Source: a virus. Taken from it: a stretch of 21,621 nt of DNA. The position numbers and the translations under genes are program-made. Shown in pieces: positions 6,805 through 21,611 of the stretch. Position 1 is the stretch's first letter, and each line of letters opens with the position of its first letter. The notes below the pieces were generated by a model. That model made no database searches and had not been told where the DNA came from. It saw nothing but the letters and a program-made list of their open reading frames with translations. The stretch covers positions 1 through 21,621 of IMG/VR virus record IMGVR_UViG_3300010354_019171; one strand, given 5' to 3'.

Positions 6805-7845
6805 ATGAGTAACTTTTTGAAGGACATGGTTAAAACCACCGGCAACGAGTTTGCCAGTATTGTCGAAGACGGTATTGATGGTGGTGATGTGACTGGGTTT
6901 GTTGACACGGGTGTATATGCTCTAAATGCTCTTCTTAGCGGCTCGCTTTACGGCGGTATGCCAGCCAACAAGATCATGGCTCTTGCAGGCGAGAGTGCAA
7001 CCGGTAAAACTTTCTTTGCTCTTAGTATCGTCAAGACCTTTTTGGAAGCCAATCCAGATGGTGTTTGTATGTACTTTGACAGCGAAGCCGCTGTCACCAG
7101 CGACATGTTCCGCACACGCAATATCGATACTCGCCGCGTTGCGGTGATTGGTGTTGCTACGGTCGAAGAATTCCGCAATCAGGCGGTCAAAGTAGTCGAT
7201 AACTATCTTAAGATGCCTGCGGGCGAACGCAAGCCGATGATCATGATTCTCGACAGCCTTGGAATGTTGAGCAGCAGCAAAGAAATGAACGACACTGCCG
7301 AAGGTAAAGATACGCGAGACATGACTCGTGCGCAAGTTACCAAGGCTACGTTCCGAGTGTTGACTCTCAAGCTTGGCAAGGCTGGTATTCCGCTCATTAT
7401 GACCAACCATACATACGAGACTATGAGTATGTTCCCGCAAAAGGTCATGGGTGGTGGTACGGGTCTTCGTTATGCCGCTTCGACTGTTCTGTTCCTCAGC
7501 AAGCGCAAAGAAAAGATCGACAACGAAGTGGTTGGTAATGTGATTCACTGCAAGCTCGACAAGGGTCGATTCACCAAAGAAAACATGATGGTTGATGTTT
7601 TGCTTCGTTACGATACGGGTCTCAACAAGTACTATGGTTTGCTTCCGATCGCCGAAAAGCACGGTATATTCAAGAAGGTTAGCACACGCTACGAAATGCC
7701 AGACGGTAGCAAAGCGTTCGAAAAGAACATCAACGAAAATCCAGAAAAATACTATACAGACGATGTCATGCGACAATTAGAAGATGCTGTTGCCAAAGAA
7801 TTCAAATACGGCAACGAGGTGAGCAACGATGAGCAGCAATCATAA
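6805..7845 (+). CDS. uvsX: UvsX RecA-like recombinase
   Basis: A 346-residue strand-exchange recombinase. It forms filaments on single-stranded DNA, with UvsY as loader, and drives homologous pairing in recombination-dependent replication and repair. Visible: Walker A GESATGKT (62-69), Walker B PMIMILDSLG with D150, NHTYET (201-206), and the GGGTG L2-type loop (216-220). The N-terminus MSNFLKDMVK followed by GSLYGGMPANKIMALAGES is typical of marine T4-like UvsX and shorter than in T4 (391 residues). In the parts I read, arginine is written with CGN codons, unlike the AT-rich genes that follow. The last 17 nt overlap the first gene of the sugar cassette. Confidence 0.97.
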   Translation: MSNFLKDMVKTTGNEFASIVEDGIDGGDVTGFVDTGVYALNALLSGSLYGGMPANKIMALAGESATGKTFFALSIVKTFLEANPDGVCMYFDSEAAVTSDMFRTRNIDTRRVAVIGVATVEEFRNQAVKVVDNYLKMPAGERKPMIMILDSLGMLSSSKEMNDTAEGKDTRDMTRAQVTKATFRVLTLKLGKAGIPLIMTNHTYETMSMFPQKVMGGGTGLRYAASTVLFLSKRKEKIDNEVVGNVIHCKLDKGRFTKENMMVDVLLRYDTGLNKYYGLLPIAEKHGIFKKVSTRYEMPDGSKAFEKNINENPEKYYTDDVMRQLEDAVAKEFKYGNEVSNDEQQS

Positions 7846-8488
7846 ACTTGGTGTTGTTATTCCATATCGTGATCGATTTCAGCATTTGATGAGCTTTTTG
7901 CCATCAACCAATACTTATTTAAATAATTCTAGAATCGATCATGAATTCTTTATTGTAGAACAAGAAAGCGGAAAGCCATTCAACCGTGGTAAACTTTTAA
8001 ATATAGGATTTTTGCTTGCCGAGCCTACGTGTGATTATGTTGTGTTTCATGATGTTGATATGATTCCGATTGAAGCCGATTACAGTTGGACGCCCAATCC
8101 AATTCACATGGCTACCGAATGCAGTCAATTTGATTACAAATTGCCATACGATAGTTATTTTGGTGGTGTTACTATGTTCAATCGCGATGACTTTAGAAAA
8201 ACCAATGGATACAACAACGAATACTGGGGATGGGGTGCTGAAGATGATGACCTACGAGCAAGATGTGGTGTTGCAGGTTTGGAGTGTACCAGAAGACGCG
8301 GTAGATACATGTCACTGCAGCACGGTAGAGTAATCAAGCAAGAAGAATATTCTAAAAATATTGAAGAACTGAAAAGTTTTACACCCGAAAAAATGCAATC
8401 AAACGGATTAAGTTCGATCGGATATTCTTTAATTGAACGAAGTCAACTTAAAAATCAAAATGGTTTTAAATACAAAGTGAGTATATAA
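7829..8488 (+). CDS. GT7-family beta-1,4-galactosyltransferase-like enzyme
   Basis: A 219-residue GT-A glycosyltransferase with all signatures of the animal beta-4-galactosyltransferase family (GT7): IPYRDRFQHL (11-20), FNRGKLLNIG (51-60), the metal-binding DVD (75-77), YFGGVTMF (110-117), the acceptor/catalytic block WGWGAEDDDL (133-142), and the downstream histidine in LQHGRV (H165). The family transfers Gal, GalNAc or a related sugar from a UDP donor to a terminal sugar. No signal peptide or membrane segment is seen, so it should act in the cytoplasm. The start is fixed by GAGGTG (7816-7821). It overlaps uvsX by 17 nt. Donor and acceptor are unknown. Confidence 0.88.
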   Translation: MSSNHKLGVVIPYRDRFQHLMSFLPSTNTYLNNSRIDHEFFIVEQESGKPFNRGKLLNIGFLLAEPTCDYVVFHDVDMIPIEADYSWTPNPIHMATECSQFDYKLPYDSYFGGVTMFNRDDFRKTNGYNNEYWGWGAEDDDLRARCGVAGLECTRRRGRYMSLQHGRVIKQEEYSKNIEELKSFTPEKMQSNGLSSIGYSLIERSQLKNQNGFKYKVSI

Positions 8489-9258
8489 TGGGCGTAATTT
8501 TAGGCGCATCTAAAAATTTTGATTTTAATACTCTTTATCCTTGGGTAAGCACTGCTTTGGCAACCAAAAACAAAGTAGTGATGATATTGATGGAAAACAA
8601 TCGAACCTTAGAGACGCAGCTAAGAGGTCTTGGTGTTGAAGTAATCACAAACGCAATACCAGGTAATGTTGTACCACATCACGAACGATTTCGCATACAA
8701 TACGAATATTTGATGAATTGCAGCGAAGAATATGTTGTTGTTACCGATAGTCGCGATGTTATTTTTCAAACGGATCCGGTCGATTGGATGAAAAATAATT
8801 TAGGATCGCATAGTGTTGTTTGCTCTAGTGAGGGTTTGGCATACAAAAACGAATTCTGGGGCAACCAAAATCTTCAAGAAGGTTTTCCGTATCTTTACGA
8901 AACTTACAAAAACAATACCATCATGAATGTCGGCGTTCTTGGTGGTAAAACTCGAGCTATTGCAGAGCTATCTTTGATGATATACAGTATGTGCAAGCAC
9001 AATCCAGCCAGAGTTTCTGATCAATCTTCGTTCAATGTTCTCTGTGGTATGAATTCGTTAGATTCATTTATACTAAAAGCCAGATCCGATGCTGGGTGGG
9101 CATTGCATGCTGGAACATGGTGTAAAACCAACAATTTTCACTTGTTTGAACCGAATCTCTTGGAACCTCAACCAACATTTGAAGGTAAAGTCGCCAAGAC
9201 GCATGATGGCAAAACATACGCTATTTTACATCAATACGATAGAATAGCGGGATATTGA
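8488..9258 (+). CDS. Putative GT-A glycosyltransferase, unassigned family
   Basis: A 256-residue soluble protein. The N-terminus MGVILGASKNFDFNTLYPWV and the later VVVTDSRDVIFQTDP (about 83-97) look like the first strand and the metal-binding DxxD region (D87, D90) of a GT-A fold. NVGVLGGKTR and the DQSSFN region fit the acceptor-side blocks of such enzymes. I cannot assign a CAZy family. It starts in a TAATG overlap with the GT7 gene and shares its core-like composition, suggesting the two entered or evolved together. Sugar transfer is inferred from motif pattern and context. Confidence 0.6.
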   Translation: MGVILGASKNFDFNTLYPWVSTALATKNKVVMILMENNRTLETQLRGLGVEVITNAIPGNVVPHHERFRIQYEYLMNCSEEYVVVTDSRDVIFQTDPVDWMKNNLGSHSVVCSSEGLAYKNEFWGNQNLQEGFPYLYETYKNNTIMNVGVLGGKTRAIAELSLMIYSMCKHNPARVSDQSSFNVLCGMNSLDSFILKARSDAGWALHAGTWCKTNNFHLFEPNLLEPQPTFEGKVAKTHDGKTYAILHQYDRIAGY

Positions 9259-9259
9259 T

Positions 9260-9946
9260 ATGAAAATAGCTTTATGTTTGTCGGGACAACCAAGAGGGCT
9301 GGTAAAAGCATACGAATACGTACAAAGAAACGTTTTATGTTGTAACGATGTTGATGTTTTTTGTCATGTATGGAACGAAGAAGAAAAAGTAAAATCATTA
9401 TACAAACCCAAAAAAATTTTAGCAGAATCTCAAAATAAGATAAAATTAAACAAAGAATATAAAACAAGAGATAATATAAATCATCCAGCTATCAATACTT
9501 TTTGCTTTTTTTATTCTCTATACATGGCCAATAATCTAAGAGAAGAATATGAAAAAGAAAATAACATCAAATACGATATTGTAATAAGATCTAGATATGA
9601 TTTTGCTATAGCTAGATGCCTGAATTTTTGTGAATATGATCCAGACAAAATCTGGACTCCTTTGATAAAAATACCAATGCCTTCTACATTTGTTTGTACA
9701 GACCAGTTTGCTTTTTCTTCTTCGCAAAATATGTCGGTATATTCTAAAATTTATGAAAAAATACAATATTATTATGATACTGGTGTTTTGATAAACGGAG
9801 AGGACTTACTGGCGGCACACGTCAAAAATTTTAATTTAATCCATAAAATTTCTTACGTTGATATGTGGGATCCTTTTTTTGGGGGTAAGTATAACTACGG
9901 TCCGCACTCTTTGGTGCGAGATGATATGGAGCAATGGATTAAATGA
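9260..9946 (+). CDS. Putative glycosyltransferase-like protein (CLSGQPR family)
   Basis: A 228-residue protein opening with MKIALCLSGQPRG and carrying NIKYDIVIRSRYDF (about 102-115). These two blocks mark a family I know from phages, large DNA viruses and bacterial polysaccharide loci, usually annotated only as hypothetical or glycosyltransferase-like. The N-terminal strand plus a central R-x-R-x-D motif suggests a GT-A-like nucleotide-sugar fold. No membrane segment is visible. It begins one base after its neighbour and is the first gene of the very AT-rich block. Substrate unknown. Confidence 0.55.
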   Translation: MKIALCLSGQPRGLVKAYEYVQRNVLCCNDVDVFCHVWNEEEKVKSLYKPKKILAESQNKIKLNKEYKTRDNINHPAINTFCFFYSLYMANNLREEYEKENNIKYDIVIRSRYDFAIARCLNFCEYDPDKIWTPLIKIPMPSTFVCTDQFAFSSSQNMSVYSKIYEKIQYYYDTGVLINGEDLLAAHVKNFNLIHKISYVDMWDPFFGGKYNYGPHSLVRDDMEQWIK

Positions 9947-10755
9947 AAGTTGTATGTAGACGCCAACCTAATTGGATAAACTTCGATTTAGATTTTGCAT
10001 GTGAAGTGCATCTTCAATATCCAGAGTTTCCTTTTAATAAAAATGATGGTATTTTTAGAGTTTATTGCGATTCATTTGAGCCGTCTTCATCTTGCGCAAA
10101 TCATCTTCATGTAGAGAAGATACTTCCACTTTGTAATTTAATTTTAACGAAAAATCCATTTATATTGTCTAAATATAAAAACTCTAGATTATTTTATTTT
10201 GGATCATCTTTCATATATCCTCATTTGCCTTGCAAAAAAACTTATGGTGTTTCTTTTGTGACCACAAAACCGAGCTGGCATTTACCTGGTTATGACTTGA
10301 GGTATGAGTTGTGGAGTAGGCAGAACGAAATAAAAATACCAAAGGTTTTTTATAGTTCCAACAGAATGCCAATAGATACAAACAGACTTCTTCCTGGAGA
10401 TGGATCTAATTTAGATAAAATGATAATGTTTGATAGTATGTTTCATGTTGCAATAGAGAATACGAAAGAAATTAATTATTTTAGTGAAAAAATCAATGAT
10501 TGCTTTTGGACAAAAACCATTCCTTTATATTGGGGTCATAAAGAAACAGTTAATTCTATTTTTGATGAAAAAGGAATAATACATTTTGATTCTGTAGATG
10601 AATTGATAAAAATATGTAATTCTTTAACAGAGAACGATTATTATAATCGAAACTCTTTTATGGAAAAAAATAAAGTTATATCTGAAATTTATGCTAAAGA
10701 TATGAATGAAAGAATTAAATTTGAAATATTAAAATTTAAAGAAGGAAAAATATGA
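9943..10755 (+). CDS. GT10 (alpha-1,3-fucosyltransferase)-like enzyme
   Basis: A 270-residue protein whose C-terminal half carries the GT10 donor-binding signature: FHVAIENT (167-174) followed by FSEKINDCF (180-188) and IPLYWG (193-198). This matches the FxxAxENS, then TEK, then VPVxxG pattern that binds GDP-fucose in bacterial and animal alpha-1,3/4-fucosyltransferases. The N-terminal half is divergent. GT10 enzymes add fucose or a related GDP-6-deoxy sugar to GlcNAc or Glc units. Both ends form 4-nt ATGA overlaps with neighbours. The family call is fairly firm; donor specificity is inferred. Confidence 0.72.
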   Translation: MKVVCRRQPNWINFDLDFACEVHLQYPEFPFNKNDGIFRVYCDSFEPSSSCANHLHVEKILPLCNLILTKNPFILSKYKNSRLFYFGSSFIYPHLPCKKTYGVSFVTTKPSWHLPGYDLRYELWSRQNEIKIPKVFYSSNRMPIDTNRLLPGDGSNLDKMIMFDSMFHVAIENTKEINYFSEKINDCFWTKTIPLYWGHKETVNSIFDEKGIIHFDSVDELIKICNSLTENDYYNRNSFMEKNKVISEIYAKDMNERIKFEILKFKEGKI

Positions 10756-11447
10756 AACTTTTGGTATGTGGACATCTTAGAAATTTTTCAAATAATTATT
10801 ATATTTTTGTAGAAAAATATTTTTCCAAATTAAATGCTGAGAGTAAACATCTTGTTACTTATAAAAATCTCGGTTGGTGGAGTGCAAAAAATTCTGTTAC
10901 TGACGGAGACATAATTGATGCAAATAAAATTATTAATTTTAATTTTTTTGATACTATTAATATTTTACAAAAAGAAATAGTGCAAAATATAGCGAAAGAG
11001 TATATCAAGCCTGTATCGATTGTGCGTCCTTATTTAAGAACAGAAAATATGTCTAGTCAGTTTGCAATGAGGTACCTTTCTTGCAAAATTTTAAATTCTT
11101 TTGTTGATTCAAACGAAACAATAGTTTTAACTCGCCCCGACATTTTACCTTCTCCTAATATGGTAAATGCTATAGTTGACATGATCAAAGATGTAGATAA
11201 CGATAAATCTTTAGTGTGTTATGTTGGCGGTACTTCTGTTGAGCAAGGAGATCCTTTCTTTGTTGGTACTGTTTCTAATTTAAAACATATAATGTCATCA
11301 TCAGCTGTTAATAATAATGAATATATGGATGCACACGCGTTTTTAGATGGAGCAATAATAGGAACCGATATCAAGTTGAAAAGATATCCAGAACTTGGAT
11401 GGGTATTGTGTAATTCGCCAAACATGACAACTTATAGGGAAATCTAA
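10752..11447 (+). CDS. Putative glycosyltransferase-like protein, unassigned
   Basis: A 231-residue protein of unknown function. MKLLVCGHLRNF at the N-terminus and IVLTRPDILPSP (about 124-135) occupy the same relative places as LCLSGQPRG and IRSRYDF in the gene two upstream, suggesting a distant relative of the same superfamily. ELGWVLCNSPN near the C-terminus could be an acceptor loop. It is soluble and strongly AT-rich at DNA level, with an ATGA overlap at its start. A glycosyltransferase role rests on context and this weak similarity. Confidence 0.45.
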   Translation: MKLLVCGHLRNFSNNYYIFVEKYFSKLNAESKHLVTYKNLGWWSAKNSVTDGDIIDANKIINFNFFDTINILQKEIVQNIAKEYIKPVSIVRPYLRTENMSSQFAMRYLSCKILNSFVDSNETIVLTRPDILPSPNMVNAIVDMIKDVDNDKSLVCYVGGTSVEQGDPFFVGTVSNLKHIMSSSAVNNNEYMDAHAFLDGAIIGTDIKLKRYPELGWVLCNSPNMTTYREI

Positions 11448-11451
11448 TAAA

Positions 11452-12123
11452 ATGAATGTATTATTTTTTCAAACATCGATTATAAATGTTTCTAAAGATC
11501 CATTAAATTATAATCCTATCAGGTCTGTGTATGATCCAGAAACTCGCCTACAACAAACAATTGAAGGTGTAAATAGCGTTAGAGCAAAATATCCTTCGGC
11601 TAAAATTTTTGTATGCGAGGCAAGCAATCTTGATGATTATCAAGAAAAAAAATTAAAAGAATGTTCGGACAATCTTATTTTACTGCATGATGTGAGTGAA
11701 GTTAAAGATACACGAAATCATTCAAATAAAAGCTTAGCCGAAGCAACTCAAGTTAAGCACATACTTAGCAATCCAGAAATACAAAATTATGATTTTGTAT
11801 TTAAAATGTCGGGAAGATACTGGCTTTCCGATAGTTTTAATCCATCATATATTCAGAATAAGAACAAAGCTAAGGTTATAGTCAAAAAAAGATTCTCAAA
11901 TCCGTATCGGCACTGGTTCAGCACTTCTTTGTATTGTGTAGGTAAATATGCTATTCCTATGATGATTAATCAGCTTGATAAAGCTATAGAGATATTAAAA
12001 TACAACAATACTGATATCGAAAGCACTTTATTTCGAGGTATCGAGAATACATACTTGATAGAAGTAGATTCTATAGGTTGTAGTGGTAGAGTTGCTGTAA
12101 ACGGAGAAATTATTAATCATTAA
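11452..12123 (+). CDS. Putative glycosyltransferase-like protein, unassigned
   Basis: A 223-residue protein, not assigned to a named family. It has a GT-A-like opening (MNVLFFQTSI, then a helix and the strand AKIFVCEAS), and DFVFKMSGRYWL (114-125) in the place where related polysaccharide-locus proteins carry a nucleotide-sugar or metal site. GIENTYLIEVDSIGCSGRV near the end may be an acceptor or base loop. It starts four bases after the preceding stop codon with little Shine-Dalgarno complementarity. Confidence 0.42.
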   Translation: MNVLFFQTSIINVSKDPLNYNPIRSVYDPETRLQQTIEGVNSVRAKYPSAKIFVCEASNLDDYQEKKLKECSDNLILLHDVSEVKDTRNHSNKSLAEATQVKHILSNPEIQNYDFVFKMSGRYWLSDSFNPSYIQNKNKAKVIVKKRFSNPYRHWFSTSLYCVGKYAIPMMINQLDKAIEILKYNNTDIESTLFRGIENTYLIEVDSIGCSGRVAVNGEIINH

Positions 12124-12136
12124 ATGAGAAGTTAAT

Positions 12137-12739
12137 ATGAACGAAAGAATACAAATATTAAATACTATTTTGCAAAAGCGCATAAATCCATCTTATCTTG
12201 AAATTGGATACGGAGACGGTACCTGCTTTGAAAGTATAGCATGCGTAGATAAAACATGTGTAGACCCAAGTCCCTTTTGTGATAAAAATTTTGGAAAATC
12301 TGGAACTTGCATAAAAAAATATAGCGATTCTTTTTTTGAATCTAATCAAAAAATGTTTGATGTGATCTTTATAGATGGAGATCATTCTTATGATCAAGTG
12401 TGTAGAGATTTTTCAAATTCTTTAAAATTTATTAAAAAAGATGGCTGTATAGTTTTACATGACTGCAATCCTCCAGATAAAAACCACACAAATCAAAATT
12501 TATGTGGAGACGGTGGATATAGAATGTTCACCGAGTTTTATCAAAAAAATACAACTTTTACATGGATGACTTCTTTTGAAGATTATGGTGTTTGTGTTGT
12601 CACACCAAATAACTTCAGACAAGCAGAGATTTTGAATAAAAATGGTGAAGATTTATATGATACATTTGTTAATTCTAAAATTAATATTTTAAATTTAAAA
12701 CAAGCTTCAGAAATTATTAAAATAATAAATTTAATTTAA
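12137..12739 (+). CDS. Class I SAM-dependent methyltransferase (Methyltransf_24-like)
   Basis: A 200-residue Rossmann-fold methyltransferase. Motif I is LEIGYGDG (21-28); IFIDGDHSYD (about 78-86) and CIVLHDCNPP (104-113) are the post-I and catalytic blocks of the Methyltransf_24 type, in which the aspartate/histidine cluster binds a metal. Family members often O-methylate sugars in polysaccharide and antibiotic pathways. In this cassette it probably caps or decorates a sugar. It has GAGAAG as ribosome-binding site and a 13-nt gap upstream. Substrate inferred from context. Confidence 0.78.
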   Translation: MNERIQILNTILQKRINPSYLEIGYGDGTCFESIACVDKTCVDPSPFCDKNFGKSGTCIKKYSDSFFESNQKMFDVIFIDGDHSYDQVCRDFSNSLKFIKKDGCIVLHDCNPPDKNHTNQNLCGDGGYRMFTEFYQKNTTFTWMTSFEDYGVCVVTPNNFRQAEILNKNGEDLYDTFVNSKINILNLKQASEIIKIINLI

Positions 12740-12766
12740 AACAAGTTTTTGACTCTCGGATAGATT

Positions 12767-13696
12767 ATGAAAAATGAAAAAATTTTTATTACAGGTGGAG
12801 CTGGTTATCTAGGTCAGAATCTCTGTAAATATTTGTCTCAAGATAACGAAATAATAGTTTACTCCAGAGATGAATCAAAACATTATTACATGCAAAAGCA
12901 GTTTCCGAATGTAAGGTTTATAATCGGAGACATAAGAAATAAAGATTACTTAATAAGAAAATCTAAAGGCTGTACAGTCGGAATATTTGCAGCATCTTTG
13001 AAACAGATAGATGCATGCACCAACAACTACGAAGAAGCTTCTAAAACAATTATAGACGGTGCTATAAATTCAAGACTTGCAGCCGAAGAAAATGGATTTA
13101 AGTCAGCAAGTTTTATATCATCAGATAAAAGCCGAGCGGCAACCACAATATATGGCGCCATGAAATATGTTGCAGGCGAATCTTTTATAGTTGGAGATTC
13201 TAATTGCAATTTAACTACTTTAATTTATGGAAATGTTGCAAATTCAACCGGTTCAATTATTCCTTTGATATGGAACTGTATCAAAAATAACAGATGTTTG
13301 ACTCTTTATGAGCCTTCTATGACTCGTTTTTGGATAGATATCAAAGATGCAGTAGATTTAATAGTCAAAGCTCAAAAGTATAAAGGATGTAATATCATAC
13401 CAAAAATAAAATCTTTTTGCATAGAAGACTTGTGTAAAATTTATAGCGAAAAATTTGGTTTAAAATATACGGTTGGTACTCCTCGCGTTGGAGAAAAAAT
13501 TCATGAAATAATGGCCTCTAATGAAGAAATCAGAAGATTACAATATGTTTCGTCTGACAATCTGTATGTTTTGTATCCAGACAGACAAATTAATAATTTA
13601 ACGTTTCCAAATAATGAATATTCTTCAAAAGATTTTTGTATGAACACAGATGAATTGCTCCATGTACTCGAAGATAAGGATTTTTATAAATTATGA
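12767..13696 (+). CDS. NAD(P)-dependent UDP-sugar 4,6-dehydratase (PseB/CapD-like SDR)
   Basis: A 309-residue extended SDR. The nucleotide-binding loop is GGAGYLG (10-16). The active-site segment SSDKSR (118-123) and Y129-x3-K133 match the inverting UDP-GlcNAc 4,6-dehydratases (PseB/FlaA1/CapE), whose D-K pair replaces the usual threonine region. The typical reaction converts UDP-GlcNAc to a UDP-4-keto-6-deoxy-HexNAc. The next gene, an RmlD-like reductase overlapping by ATGA, is the usual partner, as in the CapE/CapF and WbjB/WbjC pairs that lead to 6-deoxy-HexNAc sugars. Family call firm; exact product inferred. Confidence 0.82.
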   Translation: MKNEKIFITGGAGYLGQNLCKYLSQDNEIIVYSRDESKHYYMQKQFPNVRFIIGDIRNKDYLIRKSKGCTVGIFAASLKQIDACTNNYEEASKTIIDGAINSRLAAEENGFKSASFISSDKSRAATTIYGAMKYVAGESFIVGDSNCNLTTLIYGNVANSTGSIIPLIWNCIKNNRCLTLYEPSMTRFWIDIKDAVDLIVKAQKYKGCNIIPKIKSFCIEDLCKIYSEKFGLKYTVGTPRVGEKIHEIMASNEEIRRLQYVSSDNLYVLYPDRQINNLTFPNNEYSSKDFCMNTDELLHVLEDKDFYKL

Positions 13697-14496
13697 AATG
13701 TGCGATATTCGGAAATAATGGAATGCTTGGTTCATATGCTCGATCGTATTTGCAAGAGTTCTATGATATATTGTCTTTTGGAAGAAAAGACATAGATATC
13801 TTTTCTTGTACCAAAAAAGAATTTTTTAATTTTTCACAAGAAAAATTAAAAAATGTTGATGTTATTATAAATTGTGCAGGCGCAATAAAGCAAAGAAGCG
13901 TTTCTGACGAAGAAATGATAACGGTAAATTCCATATTTCCGCAATGGCTCGCTGAAATTAAAAAAAATACTAATTGTAATGTAATACATTTTACCACTGA
14001 TTGTGTTTACAGTGGCTTAAAAGGTAATTATTCAGAACATGACAAACACGATTGTGGTGATGTTTATGGAAAATCTAAATCACTAGGTGAAAATGAAAAT
14101 TTGACTATTATTAGAACTTCTATTATAGGAGAAGAACTAAGAAATAAGTTGAGTTTGTTAGAATGGGTTAAGTCTAATCAAAATAAAACTGTAAATGGTT
14201 TCACTAACCATTTTTGGAATGGTGTTACGTGTTTAGAGTTAATGAAGTATGTGCAGGGTGTTATAAATTACAATCATTTTTGGAATGGTGTTCGTAACGT
14301 GTTTAGCCCAAATGTTGTATCTAAATATGATTTAGTTAATATGATATCCGAAGTTTATGAATTAAATGTGATTGTCAACAAGAACAGTCATAGCGATTTT
14401 TGTGACAGATCTTTAACTTCAATTCACATCAAAAAGCCTATAACAAAATCATTAGTTAATCAATTAATTGAAATCAAAAATTTTAAATTAACTTAA
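13693..14496 (+). CDS. RmlD-like sugar-nucleotide 4-keto reductase
   Basis: A 267-residue SDR of the RmlD (dTDP-4-dehydrorhamnose reductase) superfamily. The cofactor loop is GNNGMLG (7-13), and TTDCVYSG (101-108) plus Y125-x3-K129 form the catalytic region. It probably reduces the 4-keto sugar made by the preceding gene. The protein contains the heptad NHFWNGV twice, 22 residues apart. The DNA holds a perfect 15-bp inverted repeat (13821-13854) and a direct repeat (14209-14306). It is AT-rich throughout. Confidence 0.8.
   Translation: MKCAIFGNNGMLGSYARSYLQEFYDILSFGRKDIDIFSCTKKEFFNFSQEKLKNVDVIINCAGAIKQRSVSDEEMITVNSIFPQWLAEIKKNTNCNVIHFTTDCVYSGLKGNYSEHDKHDCGDVYGKSKSLGENENLTIIRTSIIGEELRNKLSLLEWVKSNQNKTVNGFTNHFWNGVTCLELMKYVQGVINYNHFWNGVRNVFSPNVVSKYDLVNMISEVYELNVIVNKNSHSDFCDRSLTSIHIKKPITKSLVNQLIEIKNFKLT
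13821..13854. repeat. Perfect 15-bp inverted repeat with 4-nt loop inside a coding region
   Basis: ATTTTTTAATTTTTC (13821-13835) and GAAAAATTAAAAAAT (13840-13854) are exact reverse complements around ACAA. Only one pair is G-C. It lies within the RmlD-like gene and does not break the frame. Confidence 0.75.
14209..14306 (+). repeat. Intragenic direct repeat (18 nt + 10 nt), 66 nt apart
   Basis: CATTTTTGGAATGGTGTT occurs at 14209-14226 and 14275-14292. Each copy is followed by ACGTGTTTAG (14227-14236; 14297-14306), separated by four extra bases in the second copy. The repeat encodes NHFWNGV twice in the same frame. An 8-bp hairpin (AAATGGTT 14193-14200 with AACCATTT 14206-14213) abuts the first copy. 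Confidence 0.75.
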
Positions 14497-14506
14497 TACA
14501 TTTATT

Positions 14507-15463
14507 ATGAAAAACACAAAATTGGTAATGTTTGACCTTGACGGTGTTTTGGTGGATGCTTGCGAACTTCACTATGAAGCTCTAAACAAAGCTTTAAGTG
14601 CAAACGGCAAACCATCGATAAGTCGAGAAGACCATGAAAGCAAATACAATGGCCTTCCCACCAAAGTAAAGCTGAATCTTCTTGGATACGAAGATACTTT
14701 GATAAAAAAGATCGATTCCGACAAGCAAAATTATACTTTAGAATTGATTGAAAAGTGCTGCGCTAAAAGACAAGAAAAAATCGACTTGATTGATTATTTA
14801 AAAAATAGAGGCATAGTTGTCGGCTGTGTGACCAATTCAATAAGAAAAACTACGCAAAAAATGCTAATTCAGACTGGCATTTACGATAAGATAGATTTTT
14901 GCATAACAAACGAAGATGTGTGTCAGGCTAAACCGGATCCAGAGGGGTATCTGAAAGGTATATCTTTCCACAAAGATATTATCGATTCGATTGCTGATCA
15001 AGTAGTAATAGTTGAAGATAGTCCTAAAGGATTGCAAGCGGCTCGAGCAACCGGTGCTTGCGTTGTTCAAGTAAAGGATCCAAACGACGTTCATGTTGGA
15101 TTGTTCAACTCGATTGTTGCAAAAGATGTTGAAAAATCTCAAGTAAGTATGATGCGTGGTGGATGGTTTGTTGGCGCATTTGAGCCGACGTTGGAAAACA
15201 CCAAAGATTTTGAAGTTGGTTACAGAAGCTACAAAAAGGGTGAAGAGCATGATATGCATTATCATGTTGTAGCCAAAGAAATAAATTGTGTTGCTAGAGG
15301 AGTTGTAGAAGTTGAAGGGCAACTTTACAAAGAAGGCGACATTTTTATTGTTCATCCTTTCAAAGCAATCAAGCCAATATTTCACGAAGATAGTTCTATA
15401 GTTTGTGTCAAAATTCCATCATGCTCCAATGATAAATATGTCTTAAAGGACATTACACTATGA
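14507..15463 (+). CDS. HAD-family phosphatase fused to a cupin domain
   Basis: A 318-residue two-domain protein. Residues 1 to about 205 are a HAD hydrolase of the beta-phosphoglucomutase/phosphatase type: nucleophile DLDGV (D10, D12), CVTNS (107-111), lysine in AKPDP (K142), and acidic pair ED (170-171) in the VVIVEDSPKG block. Residues about 215-318 form a cupin with a complete metal-binding motif 1: G245, H251-x-H253, E258, G265. The HAD part may act on a sugar phosphate; the cupin may be a sugar isomerase-like or binding module. It resembles the core genes in base composition, unlike the gene before it, and its stop overlaps the nucleotidyltransferase start (ATGA). Confidence 0.82.
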   Translation: MKNTKLVMFDLDGVLVDACELHYEALNKALSANGKPSISREDHESKYNGLPTKVKLNLLGYEDTLIKKIDSDKQNYTLELIEKCCAKRQEKIDLIDYLKNRGIVVGCVTNSIRKTTQKMLIQTGIYDKIDFCITNEDVCQAKPDPEGYLKGISFHKDIIDSIADQVVIVEDSPKGLQAARATGACVVQVKDPNDVHVGLFNSIVAKDVEKSQVSMMRGGWFVGAFEPTLENTKDFEVGYRSYKKGEEHDMHYHVVAKEINCVARGVVEVEGQLYKEGDIFIVHPFKAIKPIFHEDSSIVCVKIPSCSNDKYVLKDITL

Positions 15464-16173
15464 AGATATTGATACCGATGGCTGGAGAAGGATCCAGGTT
15501 TGCCAAAGAGGGATACACGTTTCCCAAACCATTAATTGATGTCAATGGCAAACCAATGATACAAAATGTCGTTGAAAATATAAGCTTTGAAGCTGATTAT
15601 ATTTTCTTGGTAAGAAAAAGTCACCTTGAAAAATATCCTGGTCTTGAATCAACTTTACATAGAATCACCAACGGAAAAACAACCATAGTAACAGTTGACA
15701 GTTTGACCGAAGGTGCAGCATGCACAGCTTTGCTTGCTAAAGATTACATAAACAACGACGATGATCTGCTTATCGCCAATTCAGACCAAATAATTGAATA
15801 CAGCAAAGAAAACTTTGTAATAATCAAAGATAAAATAAACGTTGATGGTATAGTTTTTGCTTTTCGATCAACTCATCCCAAGTGGTCGTTTGTGAAACTA
15901 AATAACGAAAATTACATAACTGAAGTTGCCGAGAAAAAACCAATTTCAGATGTTGCCACATGCGGAATATATTGGTACAAGCGCGGCAAAGACTTTGTAT
16001 CCGCTGCCGAGCAAATGATCTCCAAAAACATACGCGTAAACAATGAGTTTTACGTGGCACCCGTCTACAACGAAATGATATCCAATGGCAAATCGATATT
16101 GCCATTTTTTGTTGATAAGATGTATGGTATCGGAACACCAGAAGATCTAAATTATTATTTGGAGAATTTATGA
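15460..16173 (+). CDS. Sugar-1-phosphate nucleotidyltransferase
   Basis: A 237-residue NTP_transferase-fold enzyme that joins a sugar 1-phosphate to NTP, giving the activated sugar nucleotide. It shows the pyrophosphorylase signature MAGEGSRF (7-14), a variant of GxGxRxxP, with KPLIDVNGKPM after it, then the metal-binding region LIANSDQI and YGIGTPEDLNYY near the end, typical of RmlA/GlmU/CugP-like proteins. AAAGGA at 15445-15450 serves as ribosome-binding site, and a GATAAATA octamer lies at 15431-15438. The NTP and sugar specificity cannot be told. It would supply donors for the transferases in the cassette. Confidence 0.85.
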   Translation: MKILIPMAGEGSRFAKEGYTFPKPLIDVNGKPMIQNVVENISFEADYIFLVRKSHLEKYPGLESTLHRITNGKTTIVTVDSLTEGAACTALLAKDYINNDDDLLIANSDQIIEYSKENFVIIKDKINVDGIVFAFRSTHPKWSFVKLNNENYITEVAEKKPISDVATCGIYWYKRGKDFVSAAEQMISKNIRVNNEFYVAPVYNEMISNGKSILPFFVDKMYGIGTPEDLNYYLENL

Positions 16174-16226
16174 TCGTACCAAATTTTGAATCATCATATA
16201 AAGATGGATGGCAAAATTATGAATAA
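16170..16226 (+). CDS. 18-codon ORF, possible remnant of a truncated gene or leader peptide
   Basis: Starts in an ATGA overlap with the nucleotidyltransferase stop and has a strong Shine-Dalgarno sequence (GGAG, 16161-16164), yet ends after MIVPNFESSYKDGWQNYE. Its stop overlaps the next gene's start (ATG 16219). It sits exactly where core-like base composition changes to very AT-rich. This suggests the 5' end of a gene replaced by recombination, or a leader that feeds ribosomes to the next gene. Confidence 0.4.
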   Translation: MIVPNFESSYKDGWQNYE

Positions 16227-17097
16227 AATTAATAAAATTGTATTTTTTAATAATTGCAACAACGGAGATCTGCATTATAGCAGAGAATTTTTAAAGTATC
16301 TTAAAAAAAGTTTACCCAATAAAGAACTTTATGTTTCGCATTTTAAATGTCCAGATATTTTAAAAGACGTAGGTATTACTTACAATCTAATAGACACCAG
16401 AAGTATATTACAAACTCCTTTTCATACAAACAAAGACGTTTTATTTGTCAATACTTGGATTGGAGTAGAAAATGGAAAGTGGATAAGTCAAGGATCTTGT
16501 ACTTTAAAAAATAATTACAAATTGTTTGAAAACATAGCTTCCAATTTGGGAGTCACACTTCTTTCGGAAGAAAATTACATTCCGTCTATCGACTACGATA
16601 AATTTAATATTCGCAATTTAAATTTTAATGGAAACAATATTTTTATTTCAAATGGACCTGTTCTGTCGGGACAATCTAAAAATTTTGATTTTGCTCCAAT
16701 AATTAATAAATTGGCTGAAAAATATTTTTATTGTAATTTTTTTGTGACTCAACCGTTTGAAACCAATTTTTCTAATGTTATAGATGCCAATAAGTTTTTT
16801 TATGCTAACGGTAAATCAAATTTAAATCAATTATCATACTTGTCTACATTTTGTTCTATAATAGTGGGTAGAGCAAGTGGTCCGTATTGTTTTAGTCAGA
16901 CAAAACAAAATATGTACGACAAAAATAAAATTTATATTGTGTGCGGAGAAAGAGAAGGCGAATGTCACTGGGCAACTCTTTCGGATTACAATATACAAGG
17001 CTGCAAACAAATTTGGTGCAAGTCGGATGATAATTGCGAGCAAAATGTATCAAATATTATGGAAGAATGCATAAATGAAAAATTTGGTAATAGGTAA
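16219..17097 (+). CDS. Putative glycosyltransferase-like protein (possibly GT-B fold)
   Basis: A 292-residue protein not assigned to a CAZy family. The opening KIVFFNNCNNGDLHYSREF resembles the N-terminal nucleotide-fold strand and glycine turn of heptosyltransferase-like GT-B enzymes. CSIIVGRASGPYCF (about 215-228 from this start) resembles the C-terminal donor-side loop where such enzymes carry a G-x-S-G type turn. The ATG at 16219 is chosen over a TTG at 16186 because it overlaps the end of the short upstream ORF. It opens the second AT-rich block and overlaps the next gene by 23 nt. Function is inferred. Confidence 0.5.
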   Translation: MNKINKIVFFNNCNNGDLHYSREFLKYLKKSLPNKELYVSHFKCPDILKDVGITYNLIDTRSILQTPFHTNKDVLFVNTWIGVENGKWISQGSCTLKNNYKLFENIASNLGVTLLSEENYIPSIDYDKFNIRNLNFNGNNIFISNGPVLSGQSKNFDFAPIINKLAEKYFYCNFFVTQPFETNFSNVIDANKFFYANGKSNLNQLSYLSTFCSIIVGRASGPYCFSQTKQNMYDKNKIYIVCGEREGECHWATLSDYNIQGCKQIWCKSDDNCEQNVSNIMEECINEKFGNR

Positions 17098-17878
17098 CAC
17101 TTCACAATTATCTTATTATTTTGATGACACGCACGTAAAAATTTCTTCAAGAAATATTAATATAAGTGATATTGTTTCTACAAAATGGAATAAAGTTTTC
17201 ATATGCCATGCCGAACAAAGAACTTTTATAGCAGAAAATAAAGAATCTGAAAAATTGTTTTATCAAGTAAATTGTCAAGAAACAATAAATTTAGTTGATA
17301 AAATAAAAAATTTCTGCAATCATATTGTTTATTACTCTACTGCCGAACTTTGGAACAAATGCAACGGTCCAATCGATTTAGATTTGCCGATGTCTTTTCA
17401 TGAAAATTCTTATACTTTATCCAAGTACTATACAACAAAACATTTTCAAGATAAATTTAAATATCCAAACGTTTCTATAATATATCCCTTTAATTTTAAC
17501 AGTGTACATAGAAGATCAGAATATCTGTTTGGAAAGATATTTCAATCCGTTTTGAACAAACAAAAAATAAAAATAGGTGATATCAACTATTACAGAGATA
17601 TACTACATCCTTCAGATGTTGTTAATAAAAGTATTTCTGTTTCTGTTGGAGAAGATGCGCTTGTTGGTAGCGGAAGATTAATACATATAGGAGACTTCAT
17701 TAAGAGCATTTACGAAGACAATCAATTAGATTTTGAAAGTTACGTAGAATCTGACGAAAGCAAAAAGTCTATTTACAGAAATTTTATATTTTATAATAAA
17801 CAGTATTGTCCACAGATTAATGAAAAATATCTTTTAAGATTGATATCCTCTGAAATAAAGGGAATAAAAAATGGATGA
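17075..17878 (+). CDS. Divergent NAD-dependent epimerase/dehydratase-like SDR
   Basis: A 267-residue protein resembling extended SDRs of the GDP-mannose dehydratase kind: a serine region YYSTAELWN (86-94), Y113-x3-K117 (YTLSK), VSIIYPFNFNSVHRRSEYL, and YRDILHPSDVV (173-183), which matches the RDF-x-H-x-x-DVV block. The N-terminal dinucleotide loop, however, is GNTSQLS, with only one of three expected glycines. It may bind cofactor weakly, or have become a non-catalytic or epimerase-like protein. It overlaps the gene before by 23 nt and the next by 8 nt. It lies two genes before the DegT-type enzyme that could use its 4-keto product. Confidence 0.62.
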   Translation: MKNLVIGNTSQLSYYFDDTHVKISSRNINISDIVSTKWNKVFICHAEQRTFIAENKESEKLFYQVNCQETINLVDKIKNFCNHIVYYSTAELWNKCNGPIDLDLPMSFHENSYTLSKYYTTKHFQDKFKYPNVSIIYPFNFNSVHRRSEYLFGKIFQSVLNKQKIKIGDINYYRDILHPSDVVNKSISVSVGEDALVGSGRLIHIGDFIKSIYEDNQLDFESYVESDESKKSIYRNFIFYNKQYCPQINEKYLLRLISSEIKGIKNG

Positions 17879-18218
17879 TGTGTCTATCGAAATAGAAAAT
17901 GTTATAAAAAACAGAGTTACAAATATTTTAAAAAATAGATCTATTCCCGAGTTACCGCTGGATATTGTCGCAACCGACAACATATCTGAAGTCATAGAAA
18001 AATTGTGTATTCTTCATATAAGAACATGGTTTTTAGAAGATATGGCTGGTTTGGCAAAAAGCGACGAAGAATTGGCAGCAATCAAAAGAAAAATAGATAC
18101 ATGTTTTAAACAAAAAAGACCTCAGTATGTCCAAGCAATCAATAGAATGATTGATGATTGTATATTAAAAAATAAAAGTTTAGTTGAAGATTCGGTTAAA
18201 ATCTATAAAGGTGTATAA
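17871..18218 (+). CDS. DUF4254-like small helical protein
   Basis: A 115-residue, probably all-helical protein. HIRTWFLEDMAG (49-60) followed by SDEELAAIKRKID resembles the central WHxED-type block of DUF4254, a family of unknown function. The protein is shorter than typical members. GGGA at 17861-17864 is the likely ribosome-binding site. It overlaps both neighbours (8 nt upstream, TAATG downstream), indicating tight coupling to the SDR and the DegT-family enzyme. No membrane segment is seen. A helper role in glycan assembly is guesswork. Confidence 0.5.
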   Translation: MDDVSIEIENVIKNRVTNILKNRSIPELPLDIVATDNISEVIEKLCILHIRTWFLEDMAGLAKSDEELAAIKRKIDTCFKQKRPQYVQAINRMIDDCILKNKSLVEDSVKIYKGV

Positions 18219-19378
18219 TGAAACCAATAACTTTGGTGCGCGACACAATCGATGAAACTGATATTTCTTGTTTGATAGATTGGTTGAAAACAAATCCAAG
18301 ATTAACTAAAGGTGTTAAGACTATAGAATTTGAAAACTCTTGGAGTAATTGGTTAGGATGTAAATATTCTGTTTTTGTTAATTCCGGATCTTCTGCAAAT
18401 CTAGCGGCACTCTACGCACTTGTCCAGTCAAACAGATTAAAAAACAAAAAAATAGTATTTTCTTGTCTTTCTTGGGTTACTACCGTGTCACCTGCTATGC
18501 AGCTAGGATTGGAGCCGATTCTTTGTGATGTTGATCCAGATACTCTAGGAATAGACATAGAGAAATTTGAGAATATATGTAAAAATGAAAATCCTGCAGT
18601 ATTGATGATAGTTCATGCTTTAGGGTTTCCAAATAAAATTATAAAATTAAAAGAAATATGTGAAAAATACAATGTATTGCTGATAGAAGACTCTTGCGAA
18701 TGCGTAGGGTCTACGGTAAACAATAAAAAAATGGGAACATACGGTTGTATGTCGACATTCAGTACGTATTTTGGACATCACTTCTCCACTATAGAGGGTG
18801 GTTTTGTTTGCACCGATGATTTTGAGTTGTACAATATATTAAAAAGTATTAGATCACATGGATGGTCTAGAGATCTAGATGAAGTCACTCGCAAAAGATT
18901 GCAACTCGAACATGGAATAAATGATTTTCACGACCTTTATACTTTCTATTATCCAGGATTTAATTTAAGGTCCACCGATTTGCAAGCAACTATCGGTATA
19001 CAGCAGCTAAAAAAATTAAATTTTATTTGTAAAAAAAGATTTGAAAATTTAAAAATTTATGATAAGAATATCAAAAATTCTTATTGGAAAATCGATTTAA
19101 ATAATTTTGAGTATGTTCCAAACTTTGCTTATCCGATAATTCATCCGAATTGCGCAAAAATATCTGAAGCTTTGGCTGACGGAAAAGTCGAATGTAGACC
19201 TCTTATAGCTGGAAGTATTTCTAGGCAACCGTTTTATTATAAGAAATATGGAATGCAAAAATTTGATTTTGCTGATATTATTCACTCTTATGGGATGTAT
19301 CTTCCAAACAATCCAGATATAACTGAAGAAGAAATCAAATATATTTGCTCGATAGTAAATAAATTTACTGATTTATGA
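18218..19378 (+). CDS. DegT/DnrJ/EryC1-family PLP enzyme with histidine for the catalytic lysine (ColD-like 3-dehydratase candidate)
   Basis: A 386-residue fold-type I PLP enzyme of the sugar aminotransferase family, full length. Conserved parts: NSGSSANLAAL (55-65, cofactor phosphate loop), the D158 that contacts the pyridine nitrogen (LLIEDSC), and FSTYFGHHFSTIEGG (181-195). In ordinary members the residue six before the E of EGG is the lysine that forms the internal aldimine; here it is H187. The same replacement defines GDP-4-keto-6-deoxymannose 3-dehydratase (ColD) and the E1 3-dehydrase, which remove the 3-hydroxyl rather than transaminate. Apart from C160-x-C162, no clustered cysteines for an E1-type iron-sulfur centre are seen, favouring ColD-like chemistry. 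The product would be a 3,6-dideoxy sugar. It ends in an ATGA overlap. Confidence 0.83.
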   Translation: MKPITLVRDTIDETDISCLIDWLKTNPRLTKGVKTIEFENSWSNWLGCKYSVFVNSGSSANLAALYALVQSNRLKNKKIVFSCLSWVTTVSPAMQLGLEPILCDVDPDTLGIDIEKFENICKNENPAVLMIVHALGFPNKIIKLKEICEKYNVLLIEDSCECVGSTVNNKKMGTYGCMSTFSTYFGHHFSTIEGGFVCTDDFELYNILKSIRSHGWSRDLDEVTRKRLQLEHGINDFHDLYTFYYPGFNLRSTDLQATIGIQQLKKLNFICKKRFENLKIYDKNIKNSYWKIDLNNFEYVPNFAYPIIHPNCAKISEALADGKVECRPLIAGSISRQPFYYKKYGMQKFDFADIIHSYGMYLPNNPDITEEEIKYICSIVNKFTDL

Positions 19379-19842
19379 AATTTTTAATATCACATCGTGG
19401 TAATATTGAAGGACCCGACGCACAATTTGAGAACATGCCTCAATACATAGATTTTGCTCGATCCAAAGGATATCAAGTAGAAATTGATGTTTGGTACGAT
19501 TCCGAATATCATCTTGGCCACGATCGTCCCGATTATAAAATTTCTAAAGATTGGTTGTTGGAAAGAAAAGATTGGTTGTGGTGTCATGCAAAAAATCTTG
19601 AAGCTTTACAGCACCTAATTCAAGACGGAATGCATTGTTTTTGGCATCAAGAAGATCAAGCTACACTAACCAGCAAAAATATAATTTGGTGTTACCCTGG
19701 AAATTTTATAAAAAATGGAATAGCGGTTATGCCAGAAAATGTAATGTCGGAATCAGAAATAAAAAAAATGATAGGTAAAGTTTTGGGAGTTTGTACCGAT
19801 TACCCTAGTAAATTCGCACTAGAAGATTATAATACAACATGA
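19375..19842 (+). CDS. Small GDPD/PI-PLC-like phosphodiesterase
   Basis: A 155-residue protein with the glycerophosphodiester phosphodiesterase pattern: HRG (7-9) near the N-terminus, E20-N21, the metal ligands E36 and D38 (EIDVW), H49-D50 (GHD), H71 (HAKN), and a C-terminal VCTDYP block. It is well under the usual size (about 240 residues), so it is a minimal barrel. Related short proteins occur in phages and large DNA viruses. Likely chemistry is cleavage of a phosphodiester, perhaps glycerophosphate or a phosphosugar linkage in a glycan. It is the last cassette gene; its stop overlaps the gene 41 start (ATGA). Confidence 0.72.
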   Translation: MKFLISHRGNIEGPDAQFENMPQYIDFARSKGYQVEIDVWYDSEYHLGHDRPDYKISKDWLLERKDWLWCHAKNLEALQHLIQDGMHCFWHQEDQATLTSKNIIWCYPGNFIKNGIAVMPENVMSESEIKKMIGKVLGVCTDYPSKFALEDYNTT

Positions 19843-21272
19843 AAATAGAACAACTGATCCTCGCTTCTTTGATCAAGCGAGAAGATTATGCTCGTAAAGT
19901 TTTAGCCTTTATCACTCCAGAATATTTCAGCGAATCATCCGAACGAACGTTGTTCGAGATGATGACCAAGTATTTTCAAAACTATAACACATGTCCAAGC
20001 AAAGCCGCTCTGGTGATAGAGAGCGATTCGCTGTCGCTCAATCAAAAAGACCACGAGCAGATTCGCGAGCTTATCGACAATGTCGATTCGATGGAAAGTT
20101 CCAACGATCTTGATTGGACTGTAGATGCAACTGAAAAGTGGTGCAAAGATCGAGCGGTCTATAACGCCATTTTCGAGTGCATCAAAATTATCGACGACAA
20201 AGAAGGCAAACAAAAGATCAGCAAAAATGCTATTCCCGAGTTGTTGCGCCATGCTTTGAGTGTGAGTTTCGACACCAATATTGGTCACGACTATACCGAG
20301 TGTTTGAAAGAACGCTACGACTACTATCACAGCGGCGAAGAAAAGATTCCGTTTGATCTTTCGATGTTAAACACCATCACCGATGGTGGTGTGCCCAGAA
20401 AGACTCTTAGTGTTGTTGCGGCTCCAACTGGCGGTGGAAAAAGTATCTTTTTGTGCCACCATGCGGCTGCTTGTTTGCGGCAAAACAAGAATGTTTTGTA
20501 CATCACTCTCGAAATGAGCGAGCAACGAATCGCCGAGCGCATCGATGCAAACCTAACCAACACGCGTCTCAACGAGTTGCGCGAGTTGCCGTATCCGATG
20601 TACGAAAAGAAGTTCAAGCGAGCAACACAAGATGTTCAAGGCAAATTGATCATCAAAGAGTATCCTACGGGTACCGCAAGCGCGCTCAATTTTCGTCACT
20701 TGATCGACGAGCTTCGCATCAAAAAGAACTTTGCTCCGGATGTGGTGATTGTCGACTACTTGAACATCTGCAGCAGTTCGCGCTACAAAACCAACGCAAA
20801 CGTAAACAGCTATACTCTTGTGAAAGCTATCGCCGAAGAATTGCGTGGTTTGGCTGTGGAGACAAACGTACAGATGTTTACCGCCACGCAAATCAATCGT
20901 CAGGGCTTCAACAACAGCGATGTGGATCTTACCAACACTGCCGAAAGTATGGGTTTGCCAGCAACCGCAGACTTCTTTATTGCAATCATTGGAACCGAAG
21001 AACTCGAAGAGCTGAATCAGGTGATGATCAAACAGCTCAAGAATCGTCTTGGCGATGTTGGTAGCAACCGTAAATTTGTTGTAGGGTTGGACAAGAGCAA
21101 AATGAAGTTTTATGATGTGAGCCAAACCGCACAGCAATCGTTGGTGCACGTAAACAGCGAAAGCGGAAAGGTTGTGGCTGCTGGCAACGATGAAGACGAT
21201 GATCCTTATGCAAAATCTTTGTTTAGAAAGAGCGAACAAAAATTCAATCAAAAGTTTAATGATTGGGGTTGA
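19839..21272 (+). CDS. 41: Replicative DNA helicase gp41 (DnaB-like)
   Basis: A 477-residue hexameric 5'-to-3' helicase, the size of T4 gp41 (475). It moves on the lagging strand and recruits the gp61 primase. The N-terminal domain (1 to about 150) is followed by the RecA-like motor: Walker A APTGGGKS (195-202), TLEMSEQRIAERI (223-235), Walker B DVVIVDYLNI (301-310), and TQINRQ (350-355) with the sensor glutamine. The acidic C-terminal tail (NDEDDDPY) is typical. Core-like composition and CGN arginine codons return here after the AT-rich cassette genes. Confidence 0.96.
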   Translation: MKIEQLILASLIKREDYARKVLAFITPEYFSESSERTLFEMMTKYFQNYNTCPSKAALVIESDSLSLNQKDHEQIRELIDNVDSMESSNDLDWTVDATEKWCKDRAVYNAIFECIKIIDDKEGKQKISKNAIPELLRHALSVSFDTNIGHDYTECLKERYDYYHSGEEKIPFDLSMLNTITDGGVPRKTLSVVAAPTGGGKSIFLCHHAAACLRQNKNVLYITLEMSEQRIAERIDANLTNTRLNELRELPYPMYEKKFKRATQDVQGKLIIKEYPTGTASALNFRHLIDELRIKKNFAPDVVIVDYLNICSSSRYKTNANVNSYTLVKAIAEELRGLAVETNVQMFTATQINRQGFNNSDVDLTNTAESMGLPATADFFIAIIGTEELEELNQVMIKQLKNRLGDVGSNRKFVVGLDKSKMKFYDVSQTAQQSLVHVNSESGKVVAAGNDEDDDPYAKSLFRKSEQKFNQKFNDWG

Positions 21273-21307
21273 AAAAGATCGGTTGCTGTGTAAAATCTTT
21301 TGAAGAT

Positions 21308-21378
21308 TGCGGGATAGATTAAGGGTAGATCATCGGTCTCATAATCCGATCGTGGTGGTTCAACTCCACCTCCCGCTA
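21308..21378 (+). tRNA. tRNA with CAT anticodon (Met, initiator-like, or Ile2)
   Basis: A complete cloverleaf by hand: acceptor 21308-21314 with 21371-21377 (six pairs; the terminal pair is T-T), TA at positions 8-9, D-stem GATT/GATC, anticodon stem TCGGT/TCCGA around CTCATAA with anticodon CAT at 21340-21342, T-stem GGTGG/CCACC around TTCAACT, discriminator A21378. There is a T-T mismatch next to the anticodon loop. No CCA is encoded. CAT can be Met or, with lysidine at C34, Ile(AUA). The unpaired 1-72 position and A11-T24 pair are initiator features, but the three G-C pairs of the initiator anticodon stem are incomplete. Confidence 0.85.
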
Positions 21379-21380
21379 TT

Positions 21381-21560
21381 ATGAACAATCAAGATAGTTG
21401 TTGGTACTGCAAAAAATATGATGGTGAAATGAAATTCTGCTGGGAATTCGATACATTTGTTCATGTTGCTTGCGTACAACAAGCAGCCAAAAACAAAGAC
21501 GATCGCGAGGCGCAAATTATTGCCGATGAAATTTTGGGTCCTCGTAGCTCAGTTGGATAG
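21381..21560 (+). CDS. Small zinc-finger-like protein (59 residues)
   Basis: Starts two bases after the CAT tRNA and ends inside tRNA-Arg. The sequence has C7-x2-C10, C20, H28 and C31 (CWYC, FCW, HVAC), a spacing suited to one zinc ion, followed by a charged helix (QAAKNKDDREAQIIADEIL). The last residues (about GPRSSVG) and the stop are encoded by the first 23 nt of tRNA-Arg. There is no Shine-Dalgarno sequence, because the upstream bases are the tRNA 3' end. Function unknown. I judge it real because of the cysteine pattern and a sensible helix running up to the tRNA. Confidence 0.6.
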   Translation: MNNQDSCWYCKKYDGEMKFCWEFDTFVHVACVQQAAKNKDDREAQIIADEILGPRSSVG

Positions 21561-21611
21561 AGCGTCAGCCTTCTAAGCTGAAAGTCGCAGGTTCGAGTCT
21601 TGCCGAGGACG
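21538..21611 (+). tRNA. tRNA-Arg(TCT)
   Basis: A canonical cloverleaf: acceptor GTCCTCG (21538-21544) with CGAGGAC (21604-21610), D-arm GCTC/GAGC, anticodon stem TCAGC/GCTGA around CTTCTAA with anticodon TCT at 21572-21574, T-arm GCAGG/CTTGC around TTCGAGT, discriminator G. No CCA is encoded. It reads AGA and AGG, the arginine codons favoured in the AT-rich cassette genes. Its 5' third overlaps the end of the small zinc-finger-like gene. Confidence 0.95.

Follow-up and report, generated by a model that had tools for sequence, protein, structure and literature searches.

The stretch of DNA analyzed here, hereafter the window, comprises 21,621 nt (positions 1-21,621 of the viral record IMGVR_UViG_3300010354_019171). 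The virus is T4-like and carries a DnaB-like helicase (phrog_19) and a UvsX-like recombinase (phrog_97); further genes, by reading of their ORF translations, we take to be gp46, gp47 and UvsW. From uvsX to the helicase (7829-19842) a long run of genes looks, by eye, like glycosyltransferases, nucleotidyltransferases, epimerases and aminotransferases, which suggests production or modification of surface sugars by the phage. Downstream of the helicase two tRNA genes directly flank a small gene on the same strand, separated from it by 2 nt on one side and overlapping it on the other (Table 1). The coding region runs into the 5' part of tRNA-Arg and terminates there.

Table 1. Features of the tRNA - gene - tRNA region and its upstream neighbor (positions within the window).
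Feature	Position	Strand	Remarks
DnaB-like replicative helicase gene (T4 gp41 type)	19839..21272	+	phrog_19, E 1.7e-122; upstream neighbor
Sigma-70-like promoter TTGAAA-16-TAAAAT (candidate)	21269..21296	+	~11 nt before first tRNA; weak
tRNA(CAU), CCA not encoded	21308..21378	+	ARAGORN, Rfam, canonical numbering
Spacer TT, 2 nt, from discriminator base to start codon	21379..21380	+	identical in L001 and L002
Gene for a 59-aa small zinc-finger-like protein; putative ligands C7, C10, H28, C31	21381..21560	+	
tRNA-Arg(UCU), CCA not encoded	21538..21611	+	ARAGORN and Rfam

The first tRNA was called as tRNA-Met(CAU) by ARAGORN (21307-21379) and Rfam (21308-21378, 56.6 bits), and both programs called tRNA-Arg(UCU) at 21538-21611 (69.8 bits). 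Numbered canonically, the first tRNA has its discriminator base at A21378, followed by TT and the ATG at 21381, so the start 2 nt after a tRNA, as described in an earlier note on this DNA, is right. An in-frame alternative start inside the first tRNA was looked for and none was found (only an ATT at 21378). The stop codon TAG (21558-21560) corresponds to nt 21-23 of tRNA-Arg, that is, two bases at the end of the D-loop together with G22 in the D-stem; its earlier placement in the D-loop is thus correct to within one base. Read in frame, the first 20 nt of tRNA-Arg complete codon 53 and supply the tail PRSSVG. Bacterial initiator tRNAs have no Watson-Crick pair at 1-72, an A11-U24 pair and three G-C pairs at 29-31/39-41. 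In tRNA(CAU) U1/U72 is unpaired and A11-U24 is present, as are G29-C41 and G30-C40; position 31-39 is a U-U. It looks like a phage-encoded initiator tRNA, although this U-U makes the assignment tentative. The candidate promoter upstream shows 10/12 matches (one found vs 0.8 expected by chance). The viral contig L002 has TTGAAA-16-TATAAT at the same place, and no such promoter was found in the viral contig L001.

Comparison with other phages indicates that the 59-codon ORF is a real gene and not a chance product, in agreement with its first description as a small zinc-finger-like gene. Two further viral contigs, L001 and L002, keep the tRNA-ORF-tRNA layout intact, with proteins 98% and 76% identical to that of the window. 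Between window and L002, dN/dS is 0.20 across the 52 codons preceding tRNA-Arg, with 12/7/21 differences at codon positions 1/2/3 (binomial p = 0.0096). As window and L001 are 98% identical here, only two independent versions of the ORF in this layout are known. Among 80 fetched loci with relatives of the upstream helicase the zinc-finger ORF was found only in the two close ones, and a DNA pattern for the tRNA-spacer-ATG junction matched only the two contigs already known.

A search of 2.3 Gb also turned up more diverged relatives from other phages (E 3e-5). They include the Lysinibacillus phages LysYB1/2, Bacillus phage P59 (Herelleviridae) and the viral contigs L088-L092, one of them of 341 kb. 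A scan of genome contigs gave one homologue in a Flavobacteriaceae MAG (L119), which lies at 3965-4165 directly after a 944-aa leucine-rich-repeat protein; a search of plasmids for relatives of the ORF returned no significant match. Distant relatives share the motif GGCW[YF]C...D..LVF..EFDTFVH..C......REA with its C-x2-C...H-x2-C domain. In the alignment of relatives C7, C10 and H28 are invariant and C31 is nearly so (Y in L091), while C20 is not conserved (D or S in relatives). A fold model built from an eight-row alignment is fairly confident (pLDDT 85.6), and the predicted fold, two short strands followed by helices, looks like a short PHD/RING-type zinc finger. PHD and RING/U-box chains head the fold search, although no match to a solved structure is significant (Foldseek best PDB match E 0.38; VIA-align Z <= 4.3); the best viral structure match is a 106-aa protein with 42% identity. 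The 59-aa protein shares the C-x2-C...H-x2-C spacing with PHD/RING-like zinc-binding folds (PF00628, PF13832) and matches their profiles weakly. It differs in that all these matches stay under the curated cut-offs (PHD finger PF00628: 15.9 bits, cut-off 24) and that the second zinc site of the two-zinc C4-H-C3 ligand set of PHD is absent, only C7, C10, H28 and C31 being common to most relatives. PHROGs and NCBIfam hold no family for the protein, and a sequence search of solved structures gave weak, unrelated matches only. We call the protein zinc-finger-like and not a PHD finger; a function as a single-zinc adaptor with a protein or nucleic-acid partner is guesswork.

The relatives also suggest what the tRNA contributes to the protein. 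L088, the closest relative without a tRNA, ends with ...REAQIICRELFG and stops at the very point at which tRNA-Arg starts in the window, where ...REAQIIADEILG is followed by PRSSVG from tRNA-Arg. The tRNA boundary is therefore the natural end of the family, and since the relatives lack the tRNA, PRSSVG is to be read as translated tRNA sequence rather than as a conserved part of the protein. Conservation of the C-terminus GPRSSVG together with the tRNA had been proposed as a check. The tail is indeed kept, identical in window, L001 and L002, but this identity is what tRNA conservation alone would give, and the relatives that lack the tRNA all have either no such tail or a dissimilar one.

Stop codons inside tRNA genes are found in other T4-like phages as well. 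The contig of L002 contains a 58-aa BFD-like [2Fe-2S] ferredoxin gene (Fer2_BFD, 29.5 bits, cut-off 26; L123 2114-2290, minus strand) whose stop TAG is nt 8-10 of tRNA-Val, and a nearby thioredoxin gene ends 6 nt before tRNA-Tyr. In Vibrio phage phi-pp2 (KVP40 group) the PDDEXK_5 nuclease gene pp2_314 runs into tRNA-Met and stops in the anticodon loop. As in the zinc-finger gene, the downstream tRNA holds the stop (together with the last 11-12 codons), and the protein family ends before the tRNA part, the profile matches ending at residue 121 (Pfam) or 138 (PHROGs) of 149. It differs in the protein encoded, in the position of the stop and in having no tRNA directly 5' in the stretch seen. The cyanophages S-RIM8, S-RIM44 and ACG-2014a carry small genes directly upstream of the same tRNA species, tRNA-Arg(UCU), which supplies their stop. 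These genes are unrelated to the zinc-finger gene, they stop at tRNA nt 8-10 or 38 and not at 21, and no tRNA lies on their 5' side in the stretches seen; those of S-RIM8 and ACG-2014a are alike in sequence and yet stop in different frames. A tRNA-Ile - ORF (58-62 aa) - tRNA-Glu arrangement with the stop inside tRNA-Glu was seen in L096 (2541-2855) and L097 (4259-4590); the gene next to tRNA-Arg on its 3' side in L002 has a homologue upstream of this arrangement.

The tRNA sequences themselves account for some of this. Of the 74 distinct tRNAs that the loci contain, 54% carry a TAG at about nt 8-10. In one of the three frames a stop falls within the first third in 0.74 of these tRNAs, compared to ~0.41 in random DNA, whereas the other two frames (0.30 and 0.32) are below background. 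This allows a gene that abuts a tRNA, provided the frame is right, to do without a stop of its own. The zinc-finger gene and the tRNA also occur apart: its domain is found without tRNAs (L088, LysYB1, P59, L090, L119), and in Mosig and Melnitz similar tRNA-Arg genes stand without the zinc-finger gene. The layout thus appears to be a recurrent space-saving habit of T4-like phages that is not specific to this gene, and the new small zinc-finger-like family is a passenger of it. A literature search returned no description of a phage gene borrowing the stop codon of a tRNA, which is no proof of absence; a paper on tRNA-dependent lysogeny (PMC10865867) was set aside as it concerns attachment sites and not stop codons. 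Annotation pipelines tend to avoid overlaps with tRNAs, and small genes of this kind have therefore probably gone under-reported where phages are rich in tRNAs. Beyond this one, related phages yielded at least five genes that overlap tRNAs and are unrelated to each other.

We regard the predicted interference between the gene and its tRNAs as a tolerated cost of genome compaction rather than as a switch or expression device (probability about 0.75). The small gene is packed between two tRNA genes, presumably on one transcript shared by tRNA(CAU), the ORF and tRNA-Arg; the weak promoter candidate upstream hints at such co-transcription. It has probably lost its own stop and uses a TAG that lies in the 5' half of tRNA-Arg, in-frame stops being common in this half of tRNAs and six extra residues tolerated. 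From the geometry, a ribosome on the last six codons must keep the 5' strand of tRNA-Arg unfolded. On any one molecule these codons would thus be translated before RNase P cleavage and folding of tRNA-Arg, and normally translation would follow the polymerase closely enough to finish before tRNA-Arg folds and is cut. As the stop lies within tRNA-Arg, a message cut by RNase P before G21538 would have no stop, and the claim that tRNA excision would cut off the stop is borne out by this geometry. The same note had named relatives with the same tRNA but no cysteine ORF as the observation that would count against a competition between tRNA maturation and translation. Such relatives exist (Mosig and Melnitz); together with the tRNA-less domain in L088, LysYB1, P59 and L119 and the unrelated genes running into similar tRNA-Arg genes in S-RIM8, S-RIM44 and ACG-2014a they tell against a gene-specific link with the tRNA, but leave the physical conflict untouched. 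Coupling as a selected regulatory device is not supported by these comparisons, although the conserved overlap could also reflect selection for coupling.

The alternative that survives best, although we think it unlikely, is a tRNA punctuation of the phage transcript. According to it, 3' processing of the CAU tRNA (a cut after A21378) would yield a near-leaderless message starting 5'-UU-AUG, with a 2-nt leader, on which no Shine-Dalgarno sequence is needed. Its second half, to which we give equally little credence, holds that the RNase P cut at tRNA-Arg produces a non-stop message and that translation and tRNA maturation limit each other. Absence of a Shine-Dalgarno sequence, noticed before, was confirmed: upstream of the ATG the anti-SD duplex reaches only +1.9 kcal/mol, compared to ~-3 to -7 for most window genes. 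The other window genes without such a sequence (1067, 3897, 14507, 19375, 19839) either overlap an upstream gene's end or lie no more than ~20 nt from it, which would permit translational coupling. Unlike these, the zinc-finger ORF is preceded by a tRNA only and has no upstream stop codon to couple to.

Starts next to tRNAs are not confined to this gene. An ATG opening an ORF of >= 40 codons within 12 nt follows 16/68 distinct tRNAs (those with enough sequence downstream), compared to 6.9% of random positions; the 16 tRNAs (18 rows) include the window's own cassette and some homologous pairs. Given this, a background that takes no account of strand and the dense packing of phage genes in general, the real excess is lower and the enrichment modest, which weakens its value for the punctuation account. 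The gaps fall into two classes. In the first, 10-12 nt leave room for a Shine-Dalgarno sequence, as in the gene after tRNA-Arg in L002 (TTTGGAGAAACCATG); the GGAG of the gene after tRNA-Arg lies within a few nt of the tRNA end, which also fits punctuation. In the second, of ~2-7 nt, there is no room for one, and several unrelated genes belong here: the 2OG oxygenase gene of S-PM2 (tRNA-Leu...CTATTATG) and genes in L114 after tRNA-Leu (TTATG), in L123 after tRNA-Val and in L096/L097 after tRNA-Ile, the latter repeating the whole tRNA-ORF-tRNA layout with a different gene. Near-leaderless messages may be somewhat more plausible given these starts. On the other hand, the 3' end of tRNA-Asn in L096 (906-985) itself reads AGGAG, 4-5 nt before an ATG, and this acceptor strand could serve as the Shine-Dalgarno sequence of the next gene. 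Non-stop products, moreover, would be tagged and degraded, so that making them would be wasteful unless they had a use. Folding of the whole 21300-21611 transcript gave an uninformative z of -0.79 and a predicted minimum without cloverleaf.

A mitochondrial model for such an arrangement exists. In mitochondrial transcripts tRNAs flank genes nearly without spacers, and their excision defines the mRNA ends (PMC5203842, citing Ojala 1981). The likeness to the phage cassette is one of layout only, i.e. flanking tRNAs and almost no leader after excision. Mitochondrial stops are kept or completed by polyadenylation, whereas in the phage the whole stop would be lost: the message cut before G21538 would end in ...TTG G, and in that frame addition of A cannot complete a stop. 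In E. coli, mixed tRNA/mRNA precursors such as secG-leuU are cut by RNase P (Mohanty and Kushner 2008, as cited in PMC3985628). The phage cassette would resemble them in carrying mRNA and tRNA on one precursor, if it is co-transcribed as we suppose. To our knowledge, the coding region in precursors of the secG-leuU type does not overlap the tRNA. Should tRNA removal also create the phage message, this mode of expression, best known from mitochondria, would be common to phages as well.

Still more doubtful is the wider proposal that T4-like phages use host tRNA processing as an expression device, in which near-leaderless messages combined with RNase P as an off-switch would set the amount of zinc-finger protein. 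That the ORF is spurious, an untranslated open stretch between two tRNAs, is very improbable: it is short, without a Shine-Dalgarno sequence and with a start codon adjoining a folded tRNA, but the low dN/dS, the third-position bias, the confident fold model and the homologues in several phage families, which have diverged but keep the motif, speak clearly for a protein. Least probable of all is a functional PRSSVG tail that co-evolved with the tRNA, since its identity in the three viruses is countered by the constraint acting on the tRNA anyway, by the tRNA-less relatives, by a pLDDT < 50 at residues 57-59 and by the differing tail frames of the related S-RIM8 and ACG-2014a genes.

The cassette is mosaic. 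Site by site, the ORF of the window is L001-like at 38/39 two-way sites, while both flanks, the helicase and the sequence from 21564 in tRNA-Arg onward, are L002-like (Fisher p 4e-18 and 6e-12). The breakpoints lie between 21364-21387 and between 21527-21564, in or next to the two tRNA genes; the L001-like sites 21332 and 21350, which pair with each other in the anticodon stem, make the left edge slightly less sharp. This pattern indicates an exchange between L001- and L002-related viruses that began at the first tRNA, took in the ORF as a cassette and ended in the 5' part of tRNA-Arg. One of the three viruses is recombinant here, and it may be the window, L001 or L002. In the simplest reading the conserved tRNA genes were the crossover points for swapping the gene between them, and the mosaic suggests that such tRNA genes act as joints for swaps of small genes between phages.
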